The notes below the pieces were generated by a model. The model searched no databases. It was not told where the DNA came from and worked only from the letters and a program-made list of their open reading frames with translations. Shown in pieces: positions 8,040-35,685 of a stretch of 64,000 nt of DNA (its first letter is position 1; every line of letters begins with the position of its first letter). The DNA comes from Lutibacter oceani. GTDB lineage: Bacteria > Bacteroidota > Bacteroidia > Flavobacteriales > Flavobacteriaceae. The DNA is taken from assembly GCF_003384935.1 (NCBI RefSeq), contig NZ_QTTQ01000011.1:124001-188000 (forward strand), in the 5' to 3' direction. The translations under genes were made by a program, and so were the position numbers.

Positions 8040-8621
8040 TTAAAAAATTAAATAAACTACTGGAAAAAGAAGTAACCAAATTAAATCGCACATATGCCAA
8101 AAGGCAGCACTTGACTCAAAATCTTCAACTGAATTTGAAGATTTTTGTTGTTTAAAACCAATATAAATATTAAACAAAATAACCAAGCCTACAATTACAT
8201 GAATTACATGAAATAATGTTAACATCCAGTAAAATGAGAAAAAAGTATTGTAGCCAATTGTATAACCGCTTTCAATTTTAAAATAATACTCAACACTTTT
8301 TAAAACCAAAAATAAAATTCCTCCAAACATTGTCAATCGTAAAAAGTAAGTCGTTTTTTTGATATTATTTTTCTTAAAACTTTTAACAGAAATTGCCATA
8401 AAAAAGCCACTTGTTAATAAAAACACTGTATTAACCGCACCAAAAGTTGAGTTTAACAACAATCTGGAATTATGAAAAACTTCAGGTTCATATTTACTAT
8501 AAAAAACCATTGCAATTAATGCCATCCCAAAAGTAAATAGTTCTAAAAAAATAATTATCCATAATAATATCCCTCCAGGCGGATAGTATAATTTATTTTT
8601 ATTTACAGTTATGGTTTCCAT
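8040..8621 (-). CDS. norE: Cytochrome c oxidase subunit III family protein, NorE-like
   Basis: A 193-residue membrane protein with five predicted helices of the heme-copper oxidase subunit III family. Landmarks are FLTSGFFMAISVKSF, the segment FHVIHVIVGLVIL with its two His, and a C-terminal WHMCDLIWLLLFPVVYLIF that matches the conserved W-H-D-W-F end of subunit III. It directly abuts norD with no intergenic base, which marks it as NorE, an accessory protein of NO reductase, rather than a subunit of an aa3 oxidase. Its biochemical role is not settled in the literature. Confidence 0.8.
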   Translation of the reverse strand: METITVNKNKLYYPPGGILLWIIIFLELFTFGMALIAMVFYSKYEPEVFHNSRLLLNSTFGAVNTVFLLTSGFFMAISVKSFKKNNIKKTTYFLRLTMFGGILFLVLKSVEYYFKIESGYTIGYNTFFSFYWMLTLFHVIHVIVGLVILFNIYIGFKQQKSSNSVEDFESSAAFWHMCDLIWLLLFPVVYLIF

Positions 8622-10391
8622 TTAACTTTGATGTTTTATTTTTTCATACAGTTGAACCATTGATTTTAAAAGTTCCACTGGAGTTGTTAATATTTGATAG
8701 TGATTTTGCCCAAACATTTGGGGCAAATAGTATTTGGCTTGTGCTTCAATTGCTAAAGCATACGAATTTATATTTCGTTCATTCAACTCTCTCAGTGCCT
8801 GTTTCACATCATTTATTCCATATTTTCCTTCGTACTTATCGTAATCATTTGGTTTTCCATCTGAGAGTAAAATAACCCACTTATTTTTAGTATTTCTTTT
8901 GTCTAACATAGCACCAGAATGACGCAAAGCTGCTCCAATTCTTGTATAACCACTTGGCTCAATAGCACCAACTTTAAATTTTGCTTTATTCCAATCTTCA
9001 TCAAAATCTTTAATTGTCATGTATGAAGAGTGGTTTCTGGTTTTAGAATGAAAACAATCAATAGAAAAATCAATATTAAATTCATTTAAAATTTCACCAA
9101 ATAAAATTGAAACTTGTTTTTCAACATCAATCACTCTGTTCCCTGCTGCATAACCATCACTTGACAAACTAACATCTAACAGTAATAAAATAGATAAATC
9201 TTTCTCCTTTTTTCTTTTTGATATATATATATTTTCTGAAGGTGTATGTCCGGAATGTAAATCAACAAACAAATCTGTAATGGCATCAATGTCAAACTCT
9301 TCACCTTGAGATTGTCTGCGCTGTTGTTGAAATTTATTGTTGACTGTGGTTAACATTTTACGTAAACCAATCAGCGTTGACCGATGATCCTTTAATGTTT
9401 TTTTGTAATAATTAACATCGTTTTTTAATAGCGTTTTTGGGTATACTTTACAAAAATCTTCCTTATACTTTCGTTTGGAAAAATCCCATTCATCGTATTT
9501 TATATGATAACCTTTATTATCAATTTCTGCACTTTCTGAAACTGTTGTATTTTCAATAAAATCTGCTTGATAAACAGAGTGTGCAGTATCATCAACCCGA
9601 ACCGTATATTTCATATTAACATCATCCAATGCGTTGGAATGATCATCTAATTCATCTTCTCCATCAAAATCTTTAAAATTCCCGCCAAATTCTTCTGCTG
9701 TTTCTACTTTTTCAAATTGATGTTGCAAAACTGCATCTTCTTGTTGTTTAATATCTACTTGAACGGAAATTATTTCTTCAACAGCATTGGATTTTAAAAT
9801 TGTTTTGGGTTTATCTTCTTCTACTTTTTTTACATTCTCTGTAAAATTCTGTAATTTTTCTTCTGAAGATTCTTCGGGATTATTTCGCATCCATTTTCCG
9901 TAAATGAATGAAAAATCTTTAGGGATGTTATTTTTTTGCTTTTCTGAATAAAATTTAACTAATTTATTATGGTATTTTTTTGAAATAGGAAATTGCTCAA
10001 ATAATAATTCCAAAACTTGAAATGAATTTTCTTCACTCTTTTGTTGAGACTCTAATAAATCGTGCTCTAAATTATCATTCCAATTTAAATTTAAATTCTT
10101 TTGAACCGATAAGTATAAAATTCTAAATAAATAAAATGAAATATTCTCTTCTTGTGAAGGAAACTCTACAAAATGGGTTGGAAGAAAATAGTTGTTATTT
10201 TTATAACCACCTTCTCTTTCCGCTTCATAAATTTCAATAGAACTCCCAGTAATTGCTCTTGATAATATAGTTAATCGTGGTTTAATATCTATTAACGAAA
10301 CCGAATGTAAAATACCTTCTTGCTTTTTTTTATTTCTCTTTTTAAAGAAATATGCAAGTTTGGTAAATATGTATTCATCTGGTTCGAACAT
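8622..10391 (-). CDS. norD: NorD-like protein with C-terminal von Willebrand A domain
   Basis: A 589-residue soluble protein of the NorD/CbbO type. The N-terminal half is charged and variable. The C-terminal part (about 390-589) is a vWA domain with the metal-ion-dependent adhesion site motif DVSLS (in LLLLDVSLSSDGYA) and the further motif VILLSDGKPNDYDKYEG. NorD works with the AAA+ ATPase NorQ, probably to remodel or insert the iron of the NO reductase active site; this is known for the family, not shown here. The order norQ-norD-norE is classical. A 154-bp spacer carrying repeat-like sequence separates it from norQ. Confidence 0.88.
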   Translation of the reverse strand: MFEPDEYIFTKLAYFFKKRNKKKQEGILHSVSLIDIKPRLTILSRAITGSSIEIYEAEREGGYKNNNYFLPTHFVEFPSQEENISFYLFRILYLSVQKNLNLNWNDNLEHDLLESQQKSEENSFQVLELLFEQFPISKKYHNKLVKFYSEKQKNNIPKDFSFIYGKWMRNNPEESSEEKLQNFTENVKKVEEDKPKTILKSNAVEEIISVQVDIKQQEDAVLQHQFEKVETAEEFGGNFKDFDGEDELDDHSNALDDVNMKYTVRVDDTAHSVYQADFIENTTVSESAEIDNKGYHIKYDEWDFSKRKYKEDFCKVYPKTLLKNDVNYYKKTLKDHRSTLIGLRKMLTTVNNKFQQQRRQSQGEEFDIDAITDLFVDLHSGHTPSENIYISKRKKEKDLSILLLLDVSLSSDGYAAGNRVIDVEKQVSILFGEILNEFNIDFSIDCFHSKTRNHSSYMTIKDFDEDWNKAKFKVGAIEPSGYTRIGAALRHSGAMLDKRNTKNKWVILLSDGKPNDYDKYEGKYGINDVKQALRELNERNINSYALAIEAQAKYYLPQMFGQNHYQILTTPVELLKSMVQLYEKIKHQS

Positions 10392-10545: not shown

Positions 10546-11325
10546 TTATATCATTAGATTACATAAATCTTTTAAAGCTTCAACTACATCTAAATCATCA
10601 GTTAAAGGTTCAACAATTGCAACTTCAACAGATAAACGTTTAGGCAATCCACTATGAATTAATTTAGCGGCATCAACTAATAAACGTGTTGAAACAGTTT
10701 CTGCCAAACCTAACTCAGTAAGATTTCTAATTTTGGTAGCAATATTTACTAGTTTTTTAGCAATCTCAAGTTGAATTCCTGTTTCATTTACCAAAATATC
10801 TGCTTCAATTATAGCATCAGGATAGGCAAAAGCAGCTGCAATAAATCGCTGACGTGTTGAAGGCTTTAACTCTTTAAATCCTTTTTGATAACCTGGATTA
10901 AAGGATGCAACCAGCATAAAATCATTATGTGCTTTTACAGTTTCACCTAACTTATCAATAAACAATTCTCGTCTATGATCTGTTAACGAGTGAATTGCCA
11001 CAATAACATCAGGTCTTGCCTCAGCAATTTCATCTAAATAAATAATTGCTCCTTGTTTTAAAGCAGTTGTTAATGGCCCATCAGACCAAATAGTTTCTGC
11101 TCCTTTTATAATATATCTACCAACTAAATCAGTTGAAGAAGTCTCTTCATGACAAGAAATAGTAATTAATTTTTTATTCAATTTATAGGCCATATACTCA
11201 ATAAATCTTGATTTTCCAGTTCCTGTTGGCCCTTTTAATAAAAAAGGAATTTTGTTTTTATAAGCGTGTTCAAAAACTTCAACTTCCTTCCCTACTTGAT
11301 GATAATATGGTGCTATATTTTCCAT
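10546..11325 (-). CDS. norQ: NorQ/CbbQ family AAA+ ATPase (MoxR-type)
   Basis: A 259-residue AAA+ ATPase. Walker A is GPTGTGKS (residues 32-39), Walker B is AIIYLDEIAEARPD, and sensor 1 is in FMLVASFNPGYQKGFK, followed by STRQRFIAAAFAYP with the arginine finger region. This matches NirQ/NorQ/CbbQ proteins, which with NorD activate NO reductase, probably by helping insert non-heme iron. It lies downstream of norB behind a hairpin with a T tract, so it may be expressed at a lower level than norCB or have its own promoter. Confidence 0.92.
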   Translation of the reverse strand: MENIAPYYHQVGKEVEVFEHAYKNKIPFLLKGPTGTGKSRFIEYMAYKLNKKLITISCHEETSSTDLVGRYIIKGAETIWSDGPLTTALKQGAIIYLDEIAEARPDVIVAIHSLTDHRRELFIDKLGETVKAHNDFMLVASFNPGYQKGFKELKPSTRQRFIAAAFAYPDAIIEADILVNETGIQLEIAKKLVNIATKIRNLTELGLAETVSTRLLVDAAKLIHSGLPKRLSVEVAIVEPLTDDLDVVEALKDLCNLMI

Positions 11326-11439: not shown

Positions 11440-12777
11440 TTATTTATTAATATTTAAAGCTTCATCAGTTGGTTTACCATGCTTGTAAAAATCAATAATA
11501 TAAAGTACAATACCTGTTGTAAACAATGTTGCACATAATATTAAAACAACAAAATGAATGCTAATTTCTTTTTGAACTGCCATAAACTCCATTCCAAACT
11601 TACGCTCTAAATATACTTGAGCAACACCTGCAACACCAAAGGCAACAGTCATTCCAATCATTCCAATATTTGCCAACCAAAAAGCTGCTCTTCCACGTGT
11701 ACTTTCATATAATTTTCTACCTGTTAAATTTGGCAAACTGTAACTTATAATAGCCAAAACAATCATTGCATAAGCTCCCCAAAAAGCTAAATGTCCGTGC
11801 ATTGCAGTTACTAAAGTACCGTGTGTATACAAATTTGTTTGAGGTAATGTATGCGCAAATCCTAATAATCCAGCTCCAACAAACGACACAATCGCAGAAC
11901 CTAAAGTCCAATATAATGCTAATTTATTTGGGTGTTTTTTCTCACCCTTTCTATACATATTTACTGCAAATAATGCCATTGCTAAAAATGCTAAAGGTTC
12001 TAATGCTGAAAATATTCCGCCAACAATTAACCAAATTTTATTAACTCCTATATAGTAATAATGATGTCCTGTTCCTAAAACTCCAGACAAAAAAGTTAAA
12101 CCTACAATTACATACAACCATTTTTCAATTACTTCTCTATCTACACCTGTAAGTTTTATTAATAAGAAAGATAAAATACCCCCCATAATTAATTCCCAAA
12201 CACCTTCTACCCATAAATGAACAACCCACCAACGGAAAAATGAATCTGTTACCTGACTGTCAAACTGTAACATTCCTGGTAAATACAATAAAGCAGCAAA
12301 TAATAACCCCATTGAAAGTACCAATGCTGTTGTAGTTCTTCTTTTCCCTTTGAATAAAGTAGTTAAAATAATTCCTAAAAAAAGCAAAACATTAACAACA
12401 ACTAAATAATCCAAAGGTCTTGGAATTTCTAAAAACTTTCTACCTTCCCAGTAGTTAAAATGGTATCCAACTACTGCAATTACACCAACTAAAGCTAAAC
12501 TGATTAGTTGGACATATGCCAATTTTACACTTACTAATTCTTTTTGTGCCTCTTCAGGAATAATGTAATAAGCGGCTCCCATAAAACCAGATAATAACCA
12601 AACAACTAATAGATTTGTATGCACAGCTCTAGCTGTATTAAAAGGTATTAAATCGTGTAAATTATCAAATCCTATACGGGCAAACCCCATTATAAAACCA
12701 TAAGTTATTTGTAATACTAATAATAGCATTGAAAGGGCAAAAAACCAATATGCTACTTTTTGTGATTTATATTTCAT
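11440..12777 (-). CDS. norB: Nitric oxide reductase large subunit, cytochrome c-dependent type
   Basis: A 445-residue polytopic heme-copper superfamily protein that reduces two NO to N2O at a heme b3/FeB centre. All six metal-ligand histidines can be placed against the Pseudomonas enzyme: His53 and His329 (heme b), His327 (heme b3, in TAMHGHLAFWGAY), and His187, His238 and His239 (FeB; VHLWVEGVWEL and GTGHHYYYIG). The glutamates typical of NorB, Glu191 and Glu260 (SALEPLAF), are also present. It lacks the N-terminal extension of quinol-oxidising qNor and is paired with a NorC gene 10 bp upstream, so it is a cNor that takes electrons from cytochrome c. Confidence 0.96.
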   Translation of the reverse strand: MKYKSQKVAYWFFALSMLLLVLQITYGFIMGFARIGFDNLHDLIPFNTARAVHTNLLVVWLLSGFMGAAYYIIPEEAQKELVSVKLAYVQLISLALVGVIAVVGYHFNYWEGRKFLEIPRPLDYLVVVNVLLFLGIILTTLFKGKRRTTTALVLSMGLLFAALLYLPGMLQFDSQVTDSFFRWWVVHLWVEGVWELIMGGILSFLLIKLTGVDREVIEKWLYVIVGLTFLSGVLGTGHHYYYIGVNKIWLIVGGIFSALEPLAFLAMALFAVNMYRKGEKKHPNKLALYWTLGSAIVSFVGAGLLGFAHTLPQTNLYTHGTLVTAMHGHLAFWGAYAMIVLAIISYSLPNLTGRKLYESTRGRAAFWLANIGMIGMTVAFGVAGVAQVYLERKFGMEFMAVQKEISIHFVVLILCATLFTTGIVLYIIDFYKHGKPTDEALNINK

Positions 12778-12787
12778 AATTCTTAGT

Positions 12788-13249
12788 TTAGTTGTTAATT
12801 TTATCTTTTGCTAAAGGTGATACTATACGATCAAATCCATTTAAATCAATTTCTCCAATCCATTTAAAAAAAGCAATTACATCCATAGCTTCTTGCTCAG
12901 ACATACCATAAGCCACCATTTTTCTGCCATTAGGTTGCCATGGTGCCTTTGACATTAAAATACCTTTGATTATTTCTTCGCCATTTTCATTGTATTTTAA
13001 ATTTAATCTATCAACAACTTTTGTTAATTCTGGAGCATAATAAGCTCCTTCACCTAATATGGTATGACATCCCATACAATTATTAGACTCCCAAATTTCT
13101 TTACCTCTAACCACTTCTGCAGTAAGGTTTATATGGTTAGTTTGATCTGTACTTTCTGATAAAGAGTACACGGTGAGTCCTATAAAAATAAGAAACGTCA
13201 CTAATGTTCCTCCTAAAAAGAAAGCTCTTGCTTGTTTTTTAGATAACAT
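12788..13249 (-). CDS. norC: Nitric oxide reductase cytochrome c subunit
   Basis: A 153-residue membrane-anchored c-type cytochrome. One N-terminal helix (about residues 9-30) anchors it; the periplasmic domain carries one heme site, Cys58-Met-Gly-Cys61-His62, with Met111 (GRKMVAYGMS) as the likely axial ligand. NorC passes electrons from soluble or membrane cytochrome c to NorB, which is encoded directly downstream. The upstream region carries a CRP/FNR-type site, a -7 element and an inverted repeat over the -7 element, so this gene is probably the first of the nor transcript. Confidence 0.95.
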   Translation of the reverse strand: MLSKKQARAFFLGGTLVTFLIFIGLTVYSLSESTDQTNHINLTAEVVRGKEIWESNNCMGCHTILGEGAYYAPELTKVVDRLNLKYNENGEEIIKGILMSKAPWQPNGRKMVAYGMSEQEAMDVIAFFKWIGEIDLNGFDRIVSPLAKDKINN

Positions 13250-13310
13250 GTTTTACGAATTTAATTGGTTAATTTTCATTTATAAATATATTAAGACCTT
13301 TTTATCTTTT

Positions 13311-13361
13311 ATATAAATACAAATTTATATAATTATGCATATATTAATATGATAAATGTCA
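13311..13361 (-). promoter_or_regulatory. norC promoter with CRP/FNR-type site and overlapping dyad
   Basis: Reading on the minus strand, TGACATTTATCA (13361-13350) fits the CRP/FNR core TGAY-N4-RTCA. A perfect -7 element TAAATTTG lies at 13327-13320, its centre 32 bp downstream. Using the usual placement of that element, the site would be centred near -40, an activating position. The -7 element is also covered by an inverted repeat with arms ATATAAAT (13311-13318) and ATTTATAT (13323-13330), a possible operator for the adjacent Rrf2 regulator. These are eye-found motifs in AT-rich DNA. Confidence 0.55.
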
Positions 13362-13378
13362 GTATTTTATAATTTTAT

Positions 13379-13840
13379 TTAGGAATTTATTTCTGTAGAA
13401 ATATCTTTAATAGTTAGTTTTCTCCCTTTTGAAACAATTTCTTGGGAAAATTCCATAATATTTTTATCTCTAAATTTTCCAAGTATACTATTTTTAAAAG
13501 GTTCAACAATAAAATGTACAGGACAAGGATTTGTACCATCACATTCAGACAACCCCAAAAAACATTCATTAATTCTGTTTAAACCATCAATATTTTCAAT
13601 AATATCAAGGACATTTTTCTTCTGATTTTTTTTTGTTAAATAAAAGCCTCCATTTGGGCCTTTTGTTGAAGAAATAATTTTTCCTTTTACCAATTGTTGA
13701 AATAATTTTGCTAAAAAAGGGCTTGGAACATCTATACTTTCTGCAATTACTTTAACACTAATTTTTCTATTCTCACTTGCATGTTCAGCTAAATAAAGAG
13801 TAGATAAAATTGCATACTTACTTGCGCGTGATAACATCAT
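13379..13840 (-). CDS. Rrf2 family transcriptional regulator with Fe-S cysteines (NsrR-like)
   Basis: A 153-residue Rrf2 protein. The N-terminal winged helix starts MMLSRASKYAILSTLYLAEH and includes the wing STKGPNGGFYL. Three cysteines lie in ECFLGLSECDGTNPCPVH, spaced C-x6-C-x5-C, close to the Fe-S ligands of NsrR and IscR. Its place 129 bp upstream of norC on the same strand suggests a nitric-oxide-sensing repressor of the nor genes. This is inference from family and context, not from a recognised operator. A small dyad (AATTTCA, 6 nt, TGAAATT) at 13855-13874 lies just before its start and may be autoregulatory. Confidence 0.85.
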   Translation of the reverse strand: MMLSRASKYAILSTLYLAEHASENRKISVKVIAESIDVPSPFLAKLFQQLVKGKIISSTKGPNGGFYLTKKNQKKNVLDIIENIDGLNRINECFLGLSECDGTNPCPVHFIVEPFKNSILGKFRDKNIMEFSQEIVSKGRKLTIKDISTEINS

Positions 13841-15273: not shown

Positions 15274-15622
15274 AATAATATGATGTTTTAAATTTAAAAT
15301 AAAGGTTGAAAGTAATAACTAATAAGTAGGACCTATTTAATAAAGCATTCTGGACGCTTTATATTTAAATAGATATTATTAAAGAAAAAAATGTTCATTA
15401 AAATAGTTATATCAACAAAATTACGAATTTTTCATTTTTAACAGTCAAAAATCCAAAATATTTGAAGATTTTTTAATGACAATAGTCATTAATTGTAATA
15501 AAAGTTACACTTAACTTTGTACCTACAATTTTAATTGAATTAATAAATGAATTATAGCATCGCTATATGACATTTATCATTATTTTTGCACAAGATTTAT
15601 TTTTAATAATAAAACCATTGAA
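15274..15622. other. tnaA/ccsBA divergent intergenic region, 349 bp
   Basis: No protein or tRNA gene is evident. On the minus side, a -7 element TAATTTTG (15423-15416) with a TTTG at 15449-15446 could drive tnaA with a leader of about 135 nt. That leader includes an imperfect hairpin (15333-15371) and a possible 21-codon reading frame (15398-15333) without tryptophan. On the plus side lie the ccsBA promoter (15477-15519) and a second CRP/FNR-like site TGACATTTATCA (15568-15579), followed at once by TATTTTTG (15581-15588). Confidence 0.5.
15477..15519 (+). promoter_or_regulatory. ccsBA promoter with CRP/FNR-type palindrome
   Basis: TGACAATAGTCA (15477-15488) is a symmetrical TGAC-N4-GTCA site. 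A perfect Bacteroidota -7 element TAACTTTG lies at 15512-15519, with TTG at 15493-15495 as a possible -33. The site centre is 33 bp upstream of the -7 centre, the same geometry as at norC (32 bp) and at the second citrate synthase (33 bp). The leader would be about 100 nt long and contains a further site of the same type. Confidence 0.6.
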
Positions 15623-18600
15623 ATGAACAAAATTCTTTCACTTATTTATTCTACCCGATTAATGGCAATTTTATTTTTAGTTTTTGCCATGGCTATGGGT
15701 GTTGCAACCTTTATAGAGAACGATTACGGTACCGAAACAGCAAAAGCTTTAGTTTATAATGCTTGGTGGTTTGAAGCAATCATGATTTTGTTTGCCATAA
15801 ACTTTTTTGGTAATATTTTAAAATACAAATTATATAGAAAAGAAAAATTAGTTGTACTTGCTTTTCACCTAGCTTTCCTTTTAATAATAATTGGAGCAGG
15901 AATTACAAGGTATATTAGTTTTGAAGGTATAATGCCAATTAAAGAAGGTGCTGTTAGTAATAATTTTCTTTCAGAAAAAAATTACATTAGCATTATCATT
16001 AATGATGGTAACGAGCAAAAAACACCTGTACATCATCCAATTTTACTCTCTGCTTTAGGAAGTAATAACTATAGCTATAATACAGATTTTAAAGGAACCG
16101 ATGTTTCAATTAAATTAACAGATTATATTCCAAATGCTTCAAATGTTTTTGAAGAAGTTGAATCAGGAGATAATTATTTACTAATAGTTGAATCAGGTGG
16201 TGGCGGAAGACACAACCATTACATAAAGCAAGGTTCATCTGAAGTGGTTCATGGTGTTTTAGTTGGATTTGATTCACCTGCTAATAATGTAATTGATTTT
16301 AAATCTGTTGATGGTAATTTAAAAATTAAATCTGCAGTTGAAGGTCAATTTTTTAGAATGGCAGATAATTTTGAAGGTACCATTGCAAAAGATTCTTTGC
16401 AAAACTTTTCACTTTTAGCAGTTCATTCAGTTGCAGGATTGCAATTTGTTGTTCCAAAAGGACCAATTAAAGGGGCATACAAAACGGTTTCCGGTGATAA
16501 AGATCAAAATTCTTTAGCTCAATTAGAGTTTGATGTAACCACAAATGGAGAAACAAAACATGTAAAACTTAGTGGTGGTAAATTTGCAATTCAACCACCA
16601 ACACAATTTTCTGTTGGTAATTTAAATTTTAGAATGAGTTATGGTGCTATGCAAATGAAACTTCCATTTAGCATAAAATTAAATGATTTTCAACTTGATA
16701 AATATCCTGGTTCCGAAAGTGCAATGTCTTATGCAAGTGAAGTAACTGTTATTGACCCGAGTGAAACTTTTGATTTTAGAATTTTTATGAATCACATTCT
16801 AAATTATAAAGGTTATAAATTTTTTCAATCAAGTTATAATATTACTTCTGAATATGAAGAAACCCACCTATCTGTTAATCATGATTTTTGGGGTTCAACT
16901 ATAACATATATTGGATATTTCTTGTTGTATGCTGGTTTAATTTTAATCTTATTTATGAAAAATACAAGATTTGATTTCCTTAGAAAAGGGCTTCAAAAAA
17001 TAAGAAAAAAGAAAGCAACATTAACAGTACTTGTATTATTTTTAATTTCAAGTGTGGCGTTTTCACAACAGCACAATCATTCATTATCTGAAAAACAAAT
17101 AGATTCAGCATTAATAGCCAATAAAATTGATGTATCTCATTCCGATTTATTTAGTAAACTAATTATTCAAGATGCTGGTGGTAGAATGAAACCTATTCAT
17201 ACCTATGCTTCAGAATTATTACGTAAAGTTAGTAAACACGATACTTACAAAGATATGAACGCCACTCAAGTGTTCTTATCAATTCAGCAAAATCCTAGGT
17301 TGTGGTTTCAAATACCAATTATTTATGTTGAGAAAGGAAATACAAAATTAAGGGATATTATTGGTATTCCACACGATCAAAAATATGCAACACTTGCAGA
17401 CTTTTTTGATACAAAAGGAATGTATAAAATTGCTGAGCACCAACAAAAAGCTCAAAAAACCAATATAAAAAGTAAGTTTGAAAAAGATGTAATTAATGTT
17501 GACAGAAGAGTTAATTTATTTTATTCAGCAATTACAGGTGATGTTCTTAGAATTTTTCCTATCCCAAATGATATTAATAATACTTGGATTTCACATAACG
17601 ACTTAAATAAGGCTAGTTATAAAGGTCAGGATTCTATTTTTGTTCGTCAACTTTTACCTGTTTATATTAAAACTTTGTCTGAATCAACTTCAACAAATGA
17701 TTTTACAACTGCGAATCAACTTCTTAGCGGAATAACGGATTTTCAAAAGAAATATGGTAGTGCCGTTTACCCTTCTGAAGATAAAATTAATTTAGAAATT
17801 GCTTATAATAAATATGATGTTTTTAGAACCATTTATAGCTATTATATGTACATAGGAACCTTGATGTTCTTATTTGTAATTTTTCAAATTTTCAATGCCA
17901 ATAAAGCAATTAATTACTTAATTAAAGGTAGTATTGCTATTATTATAGGTTTATTTTTGATGCATACCGGAGGTTTAATTGCACGTTGGATTGTAAGCGG
18001 AAATGCACCTTGGAGTAATGCTTACGAATCTATGATTTATGTAGGTTGGGCAACTATGCTCTTTGGGTTAATTTTTGGAAGAAAATCATCTATGACCATA
18101 GCAGCAACAGCATTTTTAACTGCATTTATTTTAATGGTTGCGCATTGGAACTGGATGGATCCTGAAATTGCAAACCTTCAACCTGTATTAAATTCATACT
18201 GGTTAATGATTCACGTTTCAATAATTGTAGCAAGTTATGGTCCTTTTGCATTAGGTATGATTTTAGGTTTAATTTCATTAATTCTTATGATTTTAACATC
18301 TTCAAAAAACAAAAACAAAATTGGCTTAATGATTAAAGAATTGACAATTATAAACGAAATGTCTTTAACTGTTGGTTTAATAATGTTAACTATTGGAAAC
18401 TTTTTAGGTGGACAATGGGCTAATGAAAGTTGGGGACGTTATTGGGGGTGGGATCCAAAAGAAACTTGGGCTTTAATTAGTATTATGATTTATGCATTTG
18501 TATTGCATTTAAGATTAGTTCCAGGTTTAAGAAGCCGATTTGCTTTTAATGTTTTTTCAATAGCTGCATTTGCTTCAATTTTAATGACTTATTTTGGAGT

Positions 18601-18742
18601 TAATTTCTACCTTTCTGGTTTACATTCTTACGCTAGTGGAGATAAAGCAATTACACCAACTTTTGTGTATTATGCAGTTGGTGTAGTTTCAGTACTTTCA
18701 ATAATTGCGTATATTCAATATAAAAAACATTATAAAAAATAA
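15623..18742 (+). CDS. ccsBA: Fused CcsB-CcsA cytochrome c maturation protein (System II)
   Basis: A 1039-residue polytopic membrane protein that carries out heme export and attachment to c-type cytochromes. The N-terminal part (about 1-455) is ResB/CcsB: membrane helices in the first 95 residues, a large periplasmic domain, and another helix near 430. The C-terminal part (about 750-1039) is CcsA, with the tryptophan-rich heme-handling WWD motif in WANESWGRYWGWDPKETWAL (about 931-950). Between them, at about 463-483, TLTVLVLFLISSVAFSQ looks like a signal peptide left inside the chain, followed by an exported linker. Such fusions are normal in Bacteroidota and Epsilonproteobacteria. It would serve NorC and other cytochromes, and its promoter resembles that of norC. 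Confidence 0.93.
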   Translation: MNKILSLIYSTRLMAILFLVFAMAMGVATFIENDYGTETAKALVYNAWWFEAIMILFAINFFGNILKYKLYRKEKLVVLAFHLAFLLIIIGAGITRYISFEGIMPIKEGAVSNNFLSEKNYISIIINDGNEQKTPVHHPILLSALGSNNYSYNTDFKGTDVSIKLTDYIPNASNVFEEVESGDNYLLIVESGGGGRHNHYIKQGSSEVVHGVLVGFDSPANNVIDFKSVDGNLKIKSAVEGQFFRMADNFEGTIAKDSLQNFSLLAVHSVAGLQFVVPKGPIKGAYKTVSGDKDQNSLAQLEFDVTTNGETKHVKLSGGKFAIQPPTQFSVGNLNFRMSYGAMQMKLPFSIKLNDFQLDKYPGSESAMSYASEVTVIDPSETFDFRIFMNHILNYKGYKFFQSSYNITSEYEETHLSVNHDFWGSTITYIGYFLLYAGLILILFMKNTRFDFLRKGLQKIRKKKATLTVLVLFLISSVAFSQQHNHSLSEKQIDSALIANKIDVSHSDLFSKLIIQDAGGRMKPIHTYASELLRKVSKHDTYKDMNATQVFLSIQQNPRLWFQIPIIYVEKGNTKLRDIIGIPHDQKYATLADFFDTKGMYKIAEHQQKAQKTNIKSKFEKDVINVDRRVNLFYSAITGDVLRIFPIPNDINNTWISHNDLNKASYKGQDSIFVRQLLPVYIKTLSESTSTNDFTTANQLLSGITDFQKKYGSAVYPSEDKINLEIAYNKYDVFRTIYSYYMYIGTLMFLFVIFQIFNANKAINYLIKGSIAIIIGLFLMHTGGLIARWIVSGNAPWSNAYESMIYVGWATMLFGLIFGRKSSMTIAATAFLTAFILMVAHWNWMDPEIANLQPVLNSYWLMIHVSIIVASYGPFALGMILGLISLILMILTSSKNKNKIGLMIKELTIINEMSLTVGLIMLTIGNFLGGQWANESWGRYWGWDPKETWALISIMIYAFVLHLRLVPGLRSRFAFNVFSIAAFASILMTYFGVNFYLSGLHSYASGDKAITPTFVYYAVGVVSVLSIIAYIQYKKHYKK

Positions 18743-32840: not shown

Positions 32841-34127
32841 TTATCTTTTACTTTCTTCTACAAATGGTCTTAAAGTTTCTCCTATGTAAATTTGTCTTGG
32901 TCTACTTATAGGCTCATTTCTTGAACGCATTTCCTTCCATTGAGCAATCCAACCTGGTAAACGACCTAATGCAAACATTGCAGTAAACATTGGTACTGGT
33001 ATACCAAGTGCTCTATAAATAATTCCTGAATAAAAATCTACATTTGGATATAAGTTACGAGATTTAAAGTATTCATCACTAAGAGCTACCTGAGCTAATC
33101 CCCTTGCAATATCTAAAACAGGATCATCAATACCCAAATCATTTAAAACTTCTTCTGCAGCAACTTTAATAATATTAGCTCTTGGATCAAAGTTTTTATA
33201 AACTCTATGACCAAATCCCATTAAACGGAACGGATCATTTTTATCTTTTGCCTTCTCAATATATTTTTGATAATCACCACCATCAGCCTTTATATCTTCA
33301 AGCATTTCTATTACTGCCTGATTAGCACCACCGTGTAATGGTCCCCAAAGAGCTGAAATACCAGCAGAAATTGAAGCAAATAAACCTGCATGTGATGAAC
33401 CAACAACCCTAACAGTTGAGGTAGAACAGTTTTGCTCATGATCTGCATGTAAAATAAGTAGTTTATCTAACGCATCTAGTACAACAGGATTCATTACAAA
33501 TTTTTCATTTGGTAATTCAAACATCATTTTAATGAAATTTTCTACGTATCCTAATGAATTATCGCCATAAGCTAACGGTAAACCTTCTTCTTTTCTATAT
33601 GCCCAAGCAACCAATACAGGAAACTTTCCTAAAATTTTACAAATTGCATTGTACATATCCTGTTCCGATTTCACATCAACACTTTTTGGATTAAAAGCTG
33701 TAAGTGCACTTGTTAAAGCAGACAAAACACCCATTGGATGAGCAGTCTTAGGAAAACCATCTAAAATCTTTTTTACATCTTCATCTACTAAAGATTTACT
33801 TTGAATGTCCTTATGAAATTTACTTTTTTCTTCTTTTGTTGGAAGTTCTCCAAATATTAATAAATAAATAACTTCTAAAAAATCAGATTTATCTGCTAAT
33901 TCTTCAATTGAATATCCTCTATAACGTAAAATTCCTTTTTCACCATCTAAGAATGTAATAGCACTCTCACAAGAACTTGTATTCTTAAATCCGGGATCTA
34001 GAGTTGTAACTCCACCTGTAACACTTCTTAATGTTTTTATATCAATGGAAACTTCATTTTCGGCTCCTACAATAACTGGAAATTCGTATTTAATACCATT
34101 TACTTCTAAAATCGCAATATCTGACAT
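32841..34127 (-). CDS. gltA: Citrate synthase, bacterial GltA type
   Basis: A 428-residue citrate synthase of the same type and length as E. coli GltA. It condenses acetyl-CoA and oxaloacetate. The N-terminal small domain (MSDIAILEVNGIKYEFPVIVGAENEVSID) is typical of the Gram-negative form. Active-site segments are LHADHEQNCSTSTVRVVGSS, ISALWGPLHGGANQAVIEML, MGFGHRVYKNFDPRA and the Asp region in FYSGIIYRALGIP. A perfect -7 element TATTTTTG (34167-34160) lies upstream, and a terminator separates it from the second citrate synthase, so the two are independently transcribed. Confidence 0.95.
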   Translation of the reverse strand: MSDIAILEVNGIKYEFPVIVGAENEVSIDIKTLRSVTGGVTTLDPGFKNTSSCESAITFLDGEKGILRYRGYSIEELADKSDFLEVIYLLIFGELPTKEEKSKFHKDIQSKSLVDEDVKKILDGFPKTAHPMGVLSALTSALTAFNPKSVDVKSEQDMYNAICKILGKFPVLVAWAYRKEEGLPLAYGDNSLGYVENFIKMMFELPNEKFVMNPVVLDALDKLLILHADHEQNCSTSTVRVVGSSHAGLFASISAGISALWGPLHGGANQAVIEMLEDIKADGGDYQKYIEKAKDKNDPFRLMGFGHRVYKNFDPRANIIKVAAEEVLNDLGIDDPVLDIARGLAQVALSDEYFKSRNLYPNVDFYSGIIYRALGIPVPMFTAMFALGRLPGWIAQWKEMRSRNEPISRPRQIYIGETLRPFVEESKR

Positions 34128-34283: not shown

Positions 34284-35612
34284 TTATATTTCAACTAAAT
34301 TTTCTGTATCAATACCAACCATTTTTTCTAACATTTCAGTTGTTACAGATTTTGGTCTTTCTAGTGAATAGCCCAATGCTCTATCCCAAATTATGTTAGA
34401 CAATACTCCAAATGACCTTCCTATAGAAAATAAAACCGTATAAAAGTCATATTGAGTTACACCATAATGCCATTGAACCACACCAGATTGTGCATCTACG
34501 TTAGGCCAAGGGTTTTTAGCTTTGCCATGTTCTCTTAATATATCTGGAACAACTTCATATAACGCATCAACATATTTAAATAAATCATCTTCTGGTAAGT
34601 GTTTTAAACAAAACTCACGTTGAACTGAATATCTAGGATCTGTTTTACGCAAAACTGCATGACCATAACCTGGAATTACTTGTCCACTGTTTAAGGTATC
34701 CCAAACATATTTTTTAAGTTCTTCTTTAGATGGTAATTTTCCTCCCATTTTATTTCTTAAACCTTGTAACCATCGTAAAACTTCCTGATTTGCCAATCCG
34801 TGTAATGGTCCAGCTAAACCATTAATCATTGCTGAAGTTGCATAATAAACATCTGAAAGAGAACTAGCAACTAAATGTCCTGTATGGGCACTTACATTTC
34901 CACTCTCATGGTCTGCATGAATTATAAAATACATTCTAGTTACATCATCATATGGTTTATCTTTGCCCATCATATATGCAAAATTTGCACCTAAATCAAG
35001 TGTTGGATCACAAAAACGATGACCTTTTTCAGGATGATACAGTTTATTATAAATATAGGCTCCAATTAAAGGTATTTTAGCTAATAAATTAGTTGCATCT
35101 TCATAAGTTGCATCCCAGTAATCCATTTTACTCATACCTTTTTTGTATTTTATATTAAAAAGAGACTCTCTTTCTAAACTCATAACTGCAGCTGAAAGTA
35201 TTGCCATTGGATGACTTTCACTTGGAAATGCATCAATCACATTCTTAACATACTGAGGAACTGTTCTCCTATTATTAAAGTCTATAATTACATCATCAAC
35301 TTCTTCTTGAGTAGGAATTTCTCCTGTAAGTAATAAATAATACAAACCTTCAACATAAGGCATTTCTGCTCCTTTAGATTTCGGTAGTTTTTCTAATACT
35401 TCAGGCAATGTATAACCTCTATATCTTATTCCTTCTAACGGATCTAAATATGATATATCTGTTACTAAACTTTTTATCCCTCTCATACCTCCCAAAGCCT
35501 GAGATACAGTAACTTGATCTATTACTTTATCTCCATATTCTTTTATCAGTTTAGTTGTTCTAGGTCTATGTTCTTTAATTTTTTTGTACAATTTTTCTTT
35601 TAGAGTACTCAT
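34284..35612 (-). CDS. Citrate synthase, eukaryote/mitochondrial-like type
   Basis: A 442-residue citrate synthase unlike its neighbour. It starts LKEKLYKKIKEHRPRTTKLI and carries the mitochondrial-type segments GMRGIKSLVTDISYLDPLEGIRYRG (split here by reading), LPSKEELKKYVWDTLNSGQV, IPGYGHAVLRKTDPRY and AQSGVVQWHYGVTQYDFYTV. The active-site His and Asp regions (HADHESGNVSAHTGHLVAS and GLAGPLHGLANQEVL) are intact, so it should be active. Its upstream region has a CRP/FNR-type site at the same spacing as norC and ccsBA, suggesting use under a different oxygen or nitrogen-oxide state than gltA. Confidence 0.92.
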   Translation of the reverse strand: MSTLKEKLYKKIKEHRPRTTKLIKEYGDKVIDQVTVSQALGGMRGIKSLVTDISYLDPLEGIRYRGYTLPEVLEKLPKSKGAEMPYVEGLYYLLLTGEIPTQEEVDDVIIDFNNRRTVPQYVKNVIDAFPSESHPMAILSAAVMSLERESLFNIKYKKGMSKMDYWDATYEDATNLLAKIPLIGAYIYNKLYHPEKGHRFCDPTLDLGANFAYMMGKDKPYDDVTRMYFIIHADHESGNVSAHTGHLVASSLSDVYYATSAMINGLAGPLHGLANQEVLRWLQGLRNKMGGKLPSKEELKKYVWDTLNSGQVIPGYGHAVLRKTDPRYSVQREFCLKHLPEDDLFKYVDALYEVVPDILREHGKAKNPWPNVDAQSGVVQWHYGVTQYDFYTVLFSIGRSFGVLSNIIWDRALGYSLERPKSVTTEMLEKMVGIDTENLVEI

Positions 35613-35642: not shown

Positions 35643-35685
35643 TAAATTTACAACTCAAACCATCATATAAAAGTGATATTTATCA
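35643..35685 (-). promoter_or_regulatory. Promoter of the second citrate synthase with CRP/FNR-type site
   Basis: TGATAAATATCA (35685-35674, minus strand) is an exact TGAT-N4-ATCA core. A -7-like TAAATTTA (one mismatch to TAnnTTTG) lies at 35650-35643 with its centre 33 bp downstream, about 30 bp before the ATG. Confidence 0.55.

Follow-up and report, generated by a model that had tools for sequence, protein, structure and literature searches.

A 64,000-nucleotide stretch of the Lutibacter oceani genome (G000:C3:124001-188000, hereafter the window; the genome has 3.38 Mb) raises the question of why genes for nitric oxide (NO) respiration, cytochrome c assembly and citrate synthesis carry a palindrome of the same type at nearly the same distance from a promoter box. 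A preliminary description of the window had proposed that a class II activator of the CRP/FNR type acts on all three functions together. Our analysis supports this proposal, in which such an activator would switch the genes on. The evidence consists of a genome-wide peak in the spacing between palindrome and box, a palindrome centre that would lie at -41.5, the same peak in three other genomes, and the retention of the sites in relatives.

Palindromes and promoter boxes in the window

A direct sequence check found the palindromes TGACATTTATCA, TGACAATAGTCA and TGATAAATATCA where they had been described, and family-model matches bore out the gene names norC, ccsBA and second citrate synthase. 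The repeated geometry was reproduced as well. From centre to centre, the distance between the site and the -7 box is 32 bp for norC and 33 bp for both ccsBA and the second citrate synthase.

Upstream of norC, the CRP/FNR-type dyad TGACATTTATCA (13350-13361, minus strand) is separated by 22 bases (gap 22) from the -7 box TAAATTTG (13320-13327, minus strand), which would place the dyad centre at -40.5. The gene encodes a cytochrome c subunit (12788-13249) and shares the minus strand with norB for a subunit I of the haem-copper oxidase family (11440-12777), a norQ-type AAA ATPase gene (CbbQ_C, 10546-11325), a gene for a VWA protein (8622-10391; CoxE-like VWA match, called norD-like from its context) and a COX3 family gene (8040-8621), termed norE-like from context as well. 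Adjoining norC is a gene for an Rrf2 family regulator with a C-x6-C-x5-C arrangement (13379-13840, minus strand). This protein matched the Rrf2 superfamily over the cut-off (TIGR00738) and scored 30.9 bits with the NsrR model, for which the cut-off is 182. A different dyad, AAGATAAAAAGGTCTT (13293-13308, minus strand), lies just past the inferred norC start and is a candidate Rrf2-type operator. The adjoining regulator probably binds it and would thereby add a check for NO just past the start. With such binding, norC would need low oxygen and NO together.

The ccsBA gene (15623-18742, plus strand) codes for a ResB-CcsB/CcsA fusion that serves cytochrome c assembly. It is preceded on the same strand by the dyad TGACAATAGTCA (15477-15488) and, at gap 23, by the -7 box TAACTTTG (15512-15519), so placed that the dyad centre would fall at -41.5. 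The preliminary description had overlooked a fourth site in the window, a further copy of TGACATTTATCA at 15568-15579 (plus strand), which is nearer to ccsBA. Beside it lies a second -7-like box, TATTTTTG (15581-15588, plus strand), at a distance of 11 bp from centre to centre. The first ccsBA site would activate one promoter, and the second, overlapping another box, could switch that one off. It is possible that the two dyads form a promoter switch.

The second citrate synthase gene (34284-35612, minus strand; NF007128 subfamily over the cut-off) has the dyad TGATAAATATCA (35674-35685, minus strand) and the -7 box TAAATTTA (35643-35650, minus strand), again with gap 23 and an expected centre at -41.5. 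The other citrate synthase of the window is encoded at 32841-34127.

Six TGAYN4RTCA palindromes were counted in the window, four of them within the 8.8% outside the ORFs counted. The combination of site, gap 22-24 and TAnnTTT[AG] matched three times, against a mean of 0.027 in 300 first-order Markov copies of the window, none of which contained three; as the pattern was framed after the sites had been seen, the genome-wide test described below is the fairer one. As a separate observation, the window also encodes a protein of the deoxyhypusine synthase family (PF01916, 25324-26313), here in a bacterial genome.

Spacing between palindrome and box in the whole genome

A whole-genome scan for the motif together with its spacing, which the preliminary description had suggested, gave a sharp peak at gap 23. 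TGAYN4RTCA followed 8-38 bases on by TAnnTTTG was found 44 times genome-wide, and the reversed-pattern control was found 5 times. Gap 22 accounted for 6 of the 44 matches, gap 23 for 24 and gap 24 for 4, with 10 distributed over the other 28 gaps. The Poisson probability of finding 34 of 44 matches in the three gaps 22-24 is about 1e-38. The doubt that motif and spacing might be equally common elsewhere was addressed as a comparison with other spacings, and proved unfounded: about 0.36 matches were found per off-spacing gap versus 24 at gap 23.

Boxes with other last bases, scanned at gaps 14-32, gave 97 matches compared to 32 for the reversed control. The TAnnTTTA box followed the same rule, with 22 matches at gap 23, a single match at gap 22 and another at gap 24 (24 in all, genome-wide). 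No peak was seen in the genome-wide scan for TAnnTTTC/T boxes, for which gap 23 had a single match. A looser dyad, TGAN6TCA, was also tried and discarded. Its 22 extra matches were not clearly concentrated at one gap (5 lay at gap 23 and 5 at gap 21), suggesting that Y and R at dyad positions 4 and 9 matter.

Altogether, 58 promoters were predicted at gaps 22-24, 34 with TAnnTTTG and 24 with TAnnTTTA. From the off-spacing background, about one false match is expected among the former and about four among the latter, so that roughly 53 of the 58 should be real. The promoters use 55 distinct palindromes out of 275 in the genome, and three palindromes serve a back-to-back pair of promoters; one of these doubly used palindromes separates a 2-oxoacid:acceptor oxidoreductase gene from a ferredoxin gene. 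Most promoters (54/58) lie outside ORFs of at least 100 amino acids, the remaining 4 inside. For 48 of the 58, an ORF was identified downstream, and in 40 of these 48 cases it starts no more than 100 bp from the inferred transcription start. The sole marked preference between site and box is a T directly after the site, present in 37 of 46 gap-23 promoters. We also considered whether the promoters might be copies of one mobile promoter. This idea was dropped on inspection, as the spacers look unrelated, except for the pair C2:294 and C5:4776.

Probable class II position of the dyads

At class II promoters of E. coli, FNR and CRP bind a dyad of TGA half-sites centred at -41.5, and the FNR box reads TTGAT-N4-ATCAA. 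In Flavobacterium psychrophilum, the sigma-A box TAnnTTTG is located at -12 to -5, according to the main text of PMC9723704. When the start is placed from this box position, the dyad centre falls at -41.5 for gap 23 and at -40.5 for gap 22, and we infer on this basis that the dyads sit at the class II position. A dimer of the CRP/FNR family would bind TGAYN4RTCA centred at -41.5, sometimes at -40.5 or -42.5, and the bound dimer would recruit RNA polymerase to the TAnnTTT[GA] box at -12 to -5.

Conservation of the sites in relatives

For norC, 36 of 60 genomes were matched and 30 loci were fetched, of which three had unclear starts, leaving 27. The site is present before norC in 24 of the 27 loci with a clear start and absent from three (L191, L212 and L214). 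All 24 loci having the site also have TAnnTTNG at gap 22-24, and a class II match with the strict box was obtained for 15 of the 30 loci. Of the 27, 23 also have the AAGATAAAAAGGTCTT dyad in the equivalent position. The second citrate synthase is less widespread, as it was detected in 5 of 37 genus genomes (cut-off E 1e-100 or better), in each of which the gene is preceded by the site at a gap of exactly 23. None of eight citrate synthase homologues from other families had a site within 400 bp.

The ccsBA sample consisted of the best 80 of 587 loci. A strict match before the gene was absent from 75 of these 80 and present in only 5, and control of ccsBA as a family-wide feature was rejected on these numbers. 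The nearest named relatives, with 79-85% identity, are from Lutibacter. Both dyads are kept in all three other Lutibacter loci, with the first dyad at gap 23; the second box differs from relative to relative (TATCTTCG, TAGTTTTG). A separate site, at gap 24, is present in two loci that carry the label Tenacibaculum.

The spacing rule itself recurs in other genomes. Full gap scans showed a peak at the same gap in G032 of the same genus (32 of 61 matches) and in G160 (20 of 37) and G239 (19 of 32), which belong to two other genera of the family. At gaps 22-24, each of the 37 genus genomes, source included, has 8-42 matches, with 0-3 in the reversed control. In a survey of the phylum, at least one match was present in 181 of 296 genomes, and the counts drop outside the family, with exceptions. 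One genome from outside the class, G328, has 32 fixed-spacing matches versus 1 in the control, where most genomes outside the class have 0-3.

Genes behind the predicted promoters

The set of predicted activator sites is far wider than norC, ccsBA and the second citrate synthase. Forty genes that are first or near-first behind the promoters were scanned for families. Respiration and cofactors are represented by nosZ with a cytochrome c, ccoI with ccoS and ccoN behind it, a NuoA-like gene, nor and ccsBA, and further by genes for a DsrO-like iron-sulfur protein and a multihaem cytochrome, feoB, and hypB, the dyad of which lies within a short ORF. The targets in carbon metabolism are pyruvate:ferredoxin oxidoreductase (NifJ type), 2-oxoacid oxidoreductases at two loci, an indolepyruvate oxidoreductase-like protein, a YfhL ferredoxin, PEP carboxykinase, pyruvate phosphate dikinase, methylmalonyl-CoA epimerase, PntA, a pyruvate dehydrogenase E1 alpha-like protein and the second citrate synthase. 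Stress and regulation contribute a universal stress protein, a thioredoxin-like protein, a kinase/receiver-CRP operon (site C2:189198) and a CRP gene behind C2:690846.

Other targets are a less good fit. A respiratory regulon would not be expected to contain genes for MlaE-like and SulP transporters, a LolA-like protein and a dipeptidyl peptidase, or a restriction-modification locus, and a FadL-like porin is likewise among the less fitting targets. No family was found for 9 of the 40 scanned genes. Judged from the target list, it is unlikely that the whole set is under an NO regulator alone.

Candidate regulators

A search for the gene of a CRP/FNR-family regulator, also suggested in the preliminary description, identified seven CRP-type genes in the genome. 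One of them (G000:C2:338205-338888), divergent from ccoI, encodes an FNR-like protein that aligns with A. fischeri FNR over the whole length (phmmer, 3e-18). With the NCBIfam Fnr subfamily model it scored 91.7 bits, under the cut-off of 228. The protein matches FNR cysteines 20, 23 and 122 (FNR numbering), and the alignment with A. fischeri FNR contains no counterpart of Cys29. In 30 of 30 FNR-like proteins (L217-L246, source included), C4, C7, C53 and C106 are invariant, the fourth cysteine of this set being C53. The four residues suggest an iron-sulfur cluster that would sense oxygen, and perhaps NO.

Of 30 loci, 26 have the FNR-like gene and ccoI in divergent orientation, with a site between the two genes in 25 of the 26. 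Towards ccoI, all 25 have TTTG (24 loci) or TTTA (1 locus) at the class II distance. Most have lost the TA of the -7 box, and only 2 of the 25 are strict class II matches. That the TA is lost and the dyad and its distance stay suggests dependence on an activator. A TACATTTG box that faces the FNR-like gene follows the same palindrome at a distance of 10 bp, both in the source genome and in G032; this arrangement would suit self-repression by the FNR-like protein.

Among 73 genomes of the class, the mean number of class II matches was 11.0 in the presence of the FNR-like gene (n = 41, cut-off 1e-40) versus 4.3 in its absence (n = 32), with P = 3e-7 not corrected for descent; genomes without the gene still have some matches. 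We consider the FNR-like protein encoded divergently from ccoI the most likely main regulator. Three further CRP proteins (L005-L007) were set aside as candidates, as their recognition helices are without the E-x-x-x-R common to the other four.

The observed motif and its spacing, the mostly non-coding location of the sites, their conservation, the families of the targets and the regulator genes would most likely be explained by a family of activator-dependent class II sigma-A promoters, with the FNR-like protein as main regulator and low oxygen as the condition that switches them on. As oxygen falls, the FNR-like protein, and perhaps also phosphorylated receiver-CRP proteins, would bind the palindrome. 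NO and N2O respiration, the assembly of cytochrome c and cbb3 oxidase, ferredoxin-linked carbon metabolism, iron uptake and further regulators would then be switched on.

Alternative explanations

Chance has to be considered in AT-rich DNA, where boxes abound (the window has 124 TAnnTTTG, counting both strands) and the palindrome alone is found 275 times genome-wide with 170 matches in the reversed-pattern control. However, chance yields neither a peak at one gap in four genomes nor conservation at a fixed distance before the citrate synthase and norC. It is also contradicted by the gap distributions and by the simulation of the window, and we regard it as extremely improbable. The dyads might instead be repressor operators whose position at -41.5 is incidental. 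The second ccsBA dyad is placed as a repressor site would be, and so is the palindrome at the promoter of the FNR-like gene itself. Yet operators need no exact distance, and one gap dominates in four genomes. Moreover, no conserved -33 element was seen between site and box of the gap-23 promoters (n = 46), and the loss of the TA before ccoI at a preserved distance suits dependence on an activator. All this makes general repression very unlikely, if somewhat less so than chance.

More weight is due to a version in which the class II geometry is real and the sites are mainly occupied by receiver-CRP fusions driven by PAS kinases, alone or sharing with the FNR-like protein. Three such fusion genes exist (G000:C2:24707-25759, C3:795169-796215 and C2:186971-188011), each immediately following a gene for a PAS histidine kinase in the source genome, the PAS fold having been found, and their receiver domains have complete phospho-acceptor residues. 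Their recognition helices, GIATETxIR or GIAKETxIR, are similar to GTATESxIR in the FNR-like protein. Of the 30 orthologous fusion loci fetched, 27 have a kinase gene upstream in the same orientation. Seven of the 30 have a gap-23 promoter behind the fusion gene, including G111 and G291, which are without an FNR-like orthologue at the 1e-40 level. Against these points, the seven promoters are confined to the ten nearest orthologues, most of which also have a universal-stress-protein homologue downstream; the other 20 loci have none, although one has a gap-24 match further downstream. In addition, the presence of a receiver-CRP protein failed as a predictor of the number of sites in the 73 genomes, with means of 8.2 and 8.0. 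On balance, we consider the fusions rather unlikely as main occupants and prefer the FNR-like protein in this role.

Relation to known systems

Class II CRP/FNR regulons are already known as a kind of system. The present one has variant features, namely the Bacteroidota box, a different fourth cysteine and the receiver-CRP fusions. It shares with FNR and CRP of E. coli the dyad of TGA half-sites, with an expected position at -41.5, an FNR-like regulator and targets in low-oxygen respiration. Unlike there, the TAnnTTT[GA] box replaces the -10 and -35 elements, the dyad is without the flanking TT, and the third cluster cysteine of FNR is absent, with C53 invariant instead. The fixed spacing suggests that class II activation keeps the -41.5 geometry on a Bacteroidota polymerase with a different promoter box.

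In the FixL-FixJ-FixK cascade of rhizobia, a PAS histidine kinase, a receiver protein and a CRP/FNR-type unit target cbb3 genes. The same kinds of components, and cbb3 oxidase genes as targets, are found here. The receiver and the CRP unit are joined in one protein, in contrast to the rhizobial system, and the PAS domain here was recognised by its fold. The PAS kinase and receiver-CRP pair would be a cascade resembling FixL-FixJ-FixK with its last two proteins fused.

Tentatively, and with rather less confidence than in the promoter family itself, we propose that the FNR variant and the three receiver-CRP fusions might converge on TGAYN4RTCA-N23-TAnnTTT[GA]. Direct oxygen sensing would be merged in this way with kinase signals, and a large part of the energy metabolism that Flavobacteriaceae use at low oxygen would be run from it, in some Lutibacter including the second citrate synthase beside ferredoxin-dependent oxoacid oxidoreductases, pyruvate phosphate dikinase and PEP carboxykinase. 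If so, this set of carbon genes might run the TCA cycle in a ferredoxin-linked form, or even reversed, without oxygen. Seas, sediments and sewage harbour large numbers of flavobacteria, some of which reduce N2O. A worked-out rule for their switch to respiration without oxygen was not found in the open-access literature searched. One site at one exact distance would make the low-oxygen regulon readable from the DNA sequence, by a simple rule that can be tested. In open-access main texts, we found no description of the spacing rule, of a Lutibacter regulon, or of receiver-CRP fusions at such sites.

Regulons of DNR, NnrR, HcpR and NsrR, with FNR-type regulators of nor and nos genes, are described in the open-access text of PMC1274295. 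The DNR motif given there, TTGATnnnnATCAA, resembles the present dyad. Unlike in those regulons, as this text presents them, one class of sites here also covers central carbon metabolism and electron transport. The same text states that the HcpR2 regulons of most Bacteroides hold only hcp. A CRP/FNR meta-regulon of an anammox community (PMC8510549) likewise predicts CRP/FNR targets in a Flavobacteriales genome. As far as its open-access text goes, the CRP/FNR homologues concerned are assigned to MalR, and no evidence is reported for control of denitrification by the family in those organisms. For F. psychrophilum, the main text of PMC9723704 contains neither 'Crp' nor 'Fnr'. The sigma-A motifs SM1-3 described in it have the same TAnnTTTG box as the promoters here, and the cbb3 oxidase of this species is induced by oxygen limitation according to the same text.
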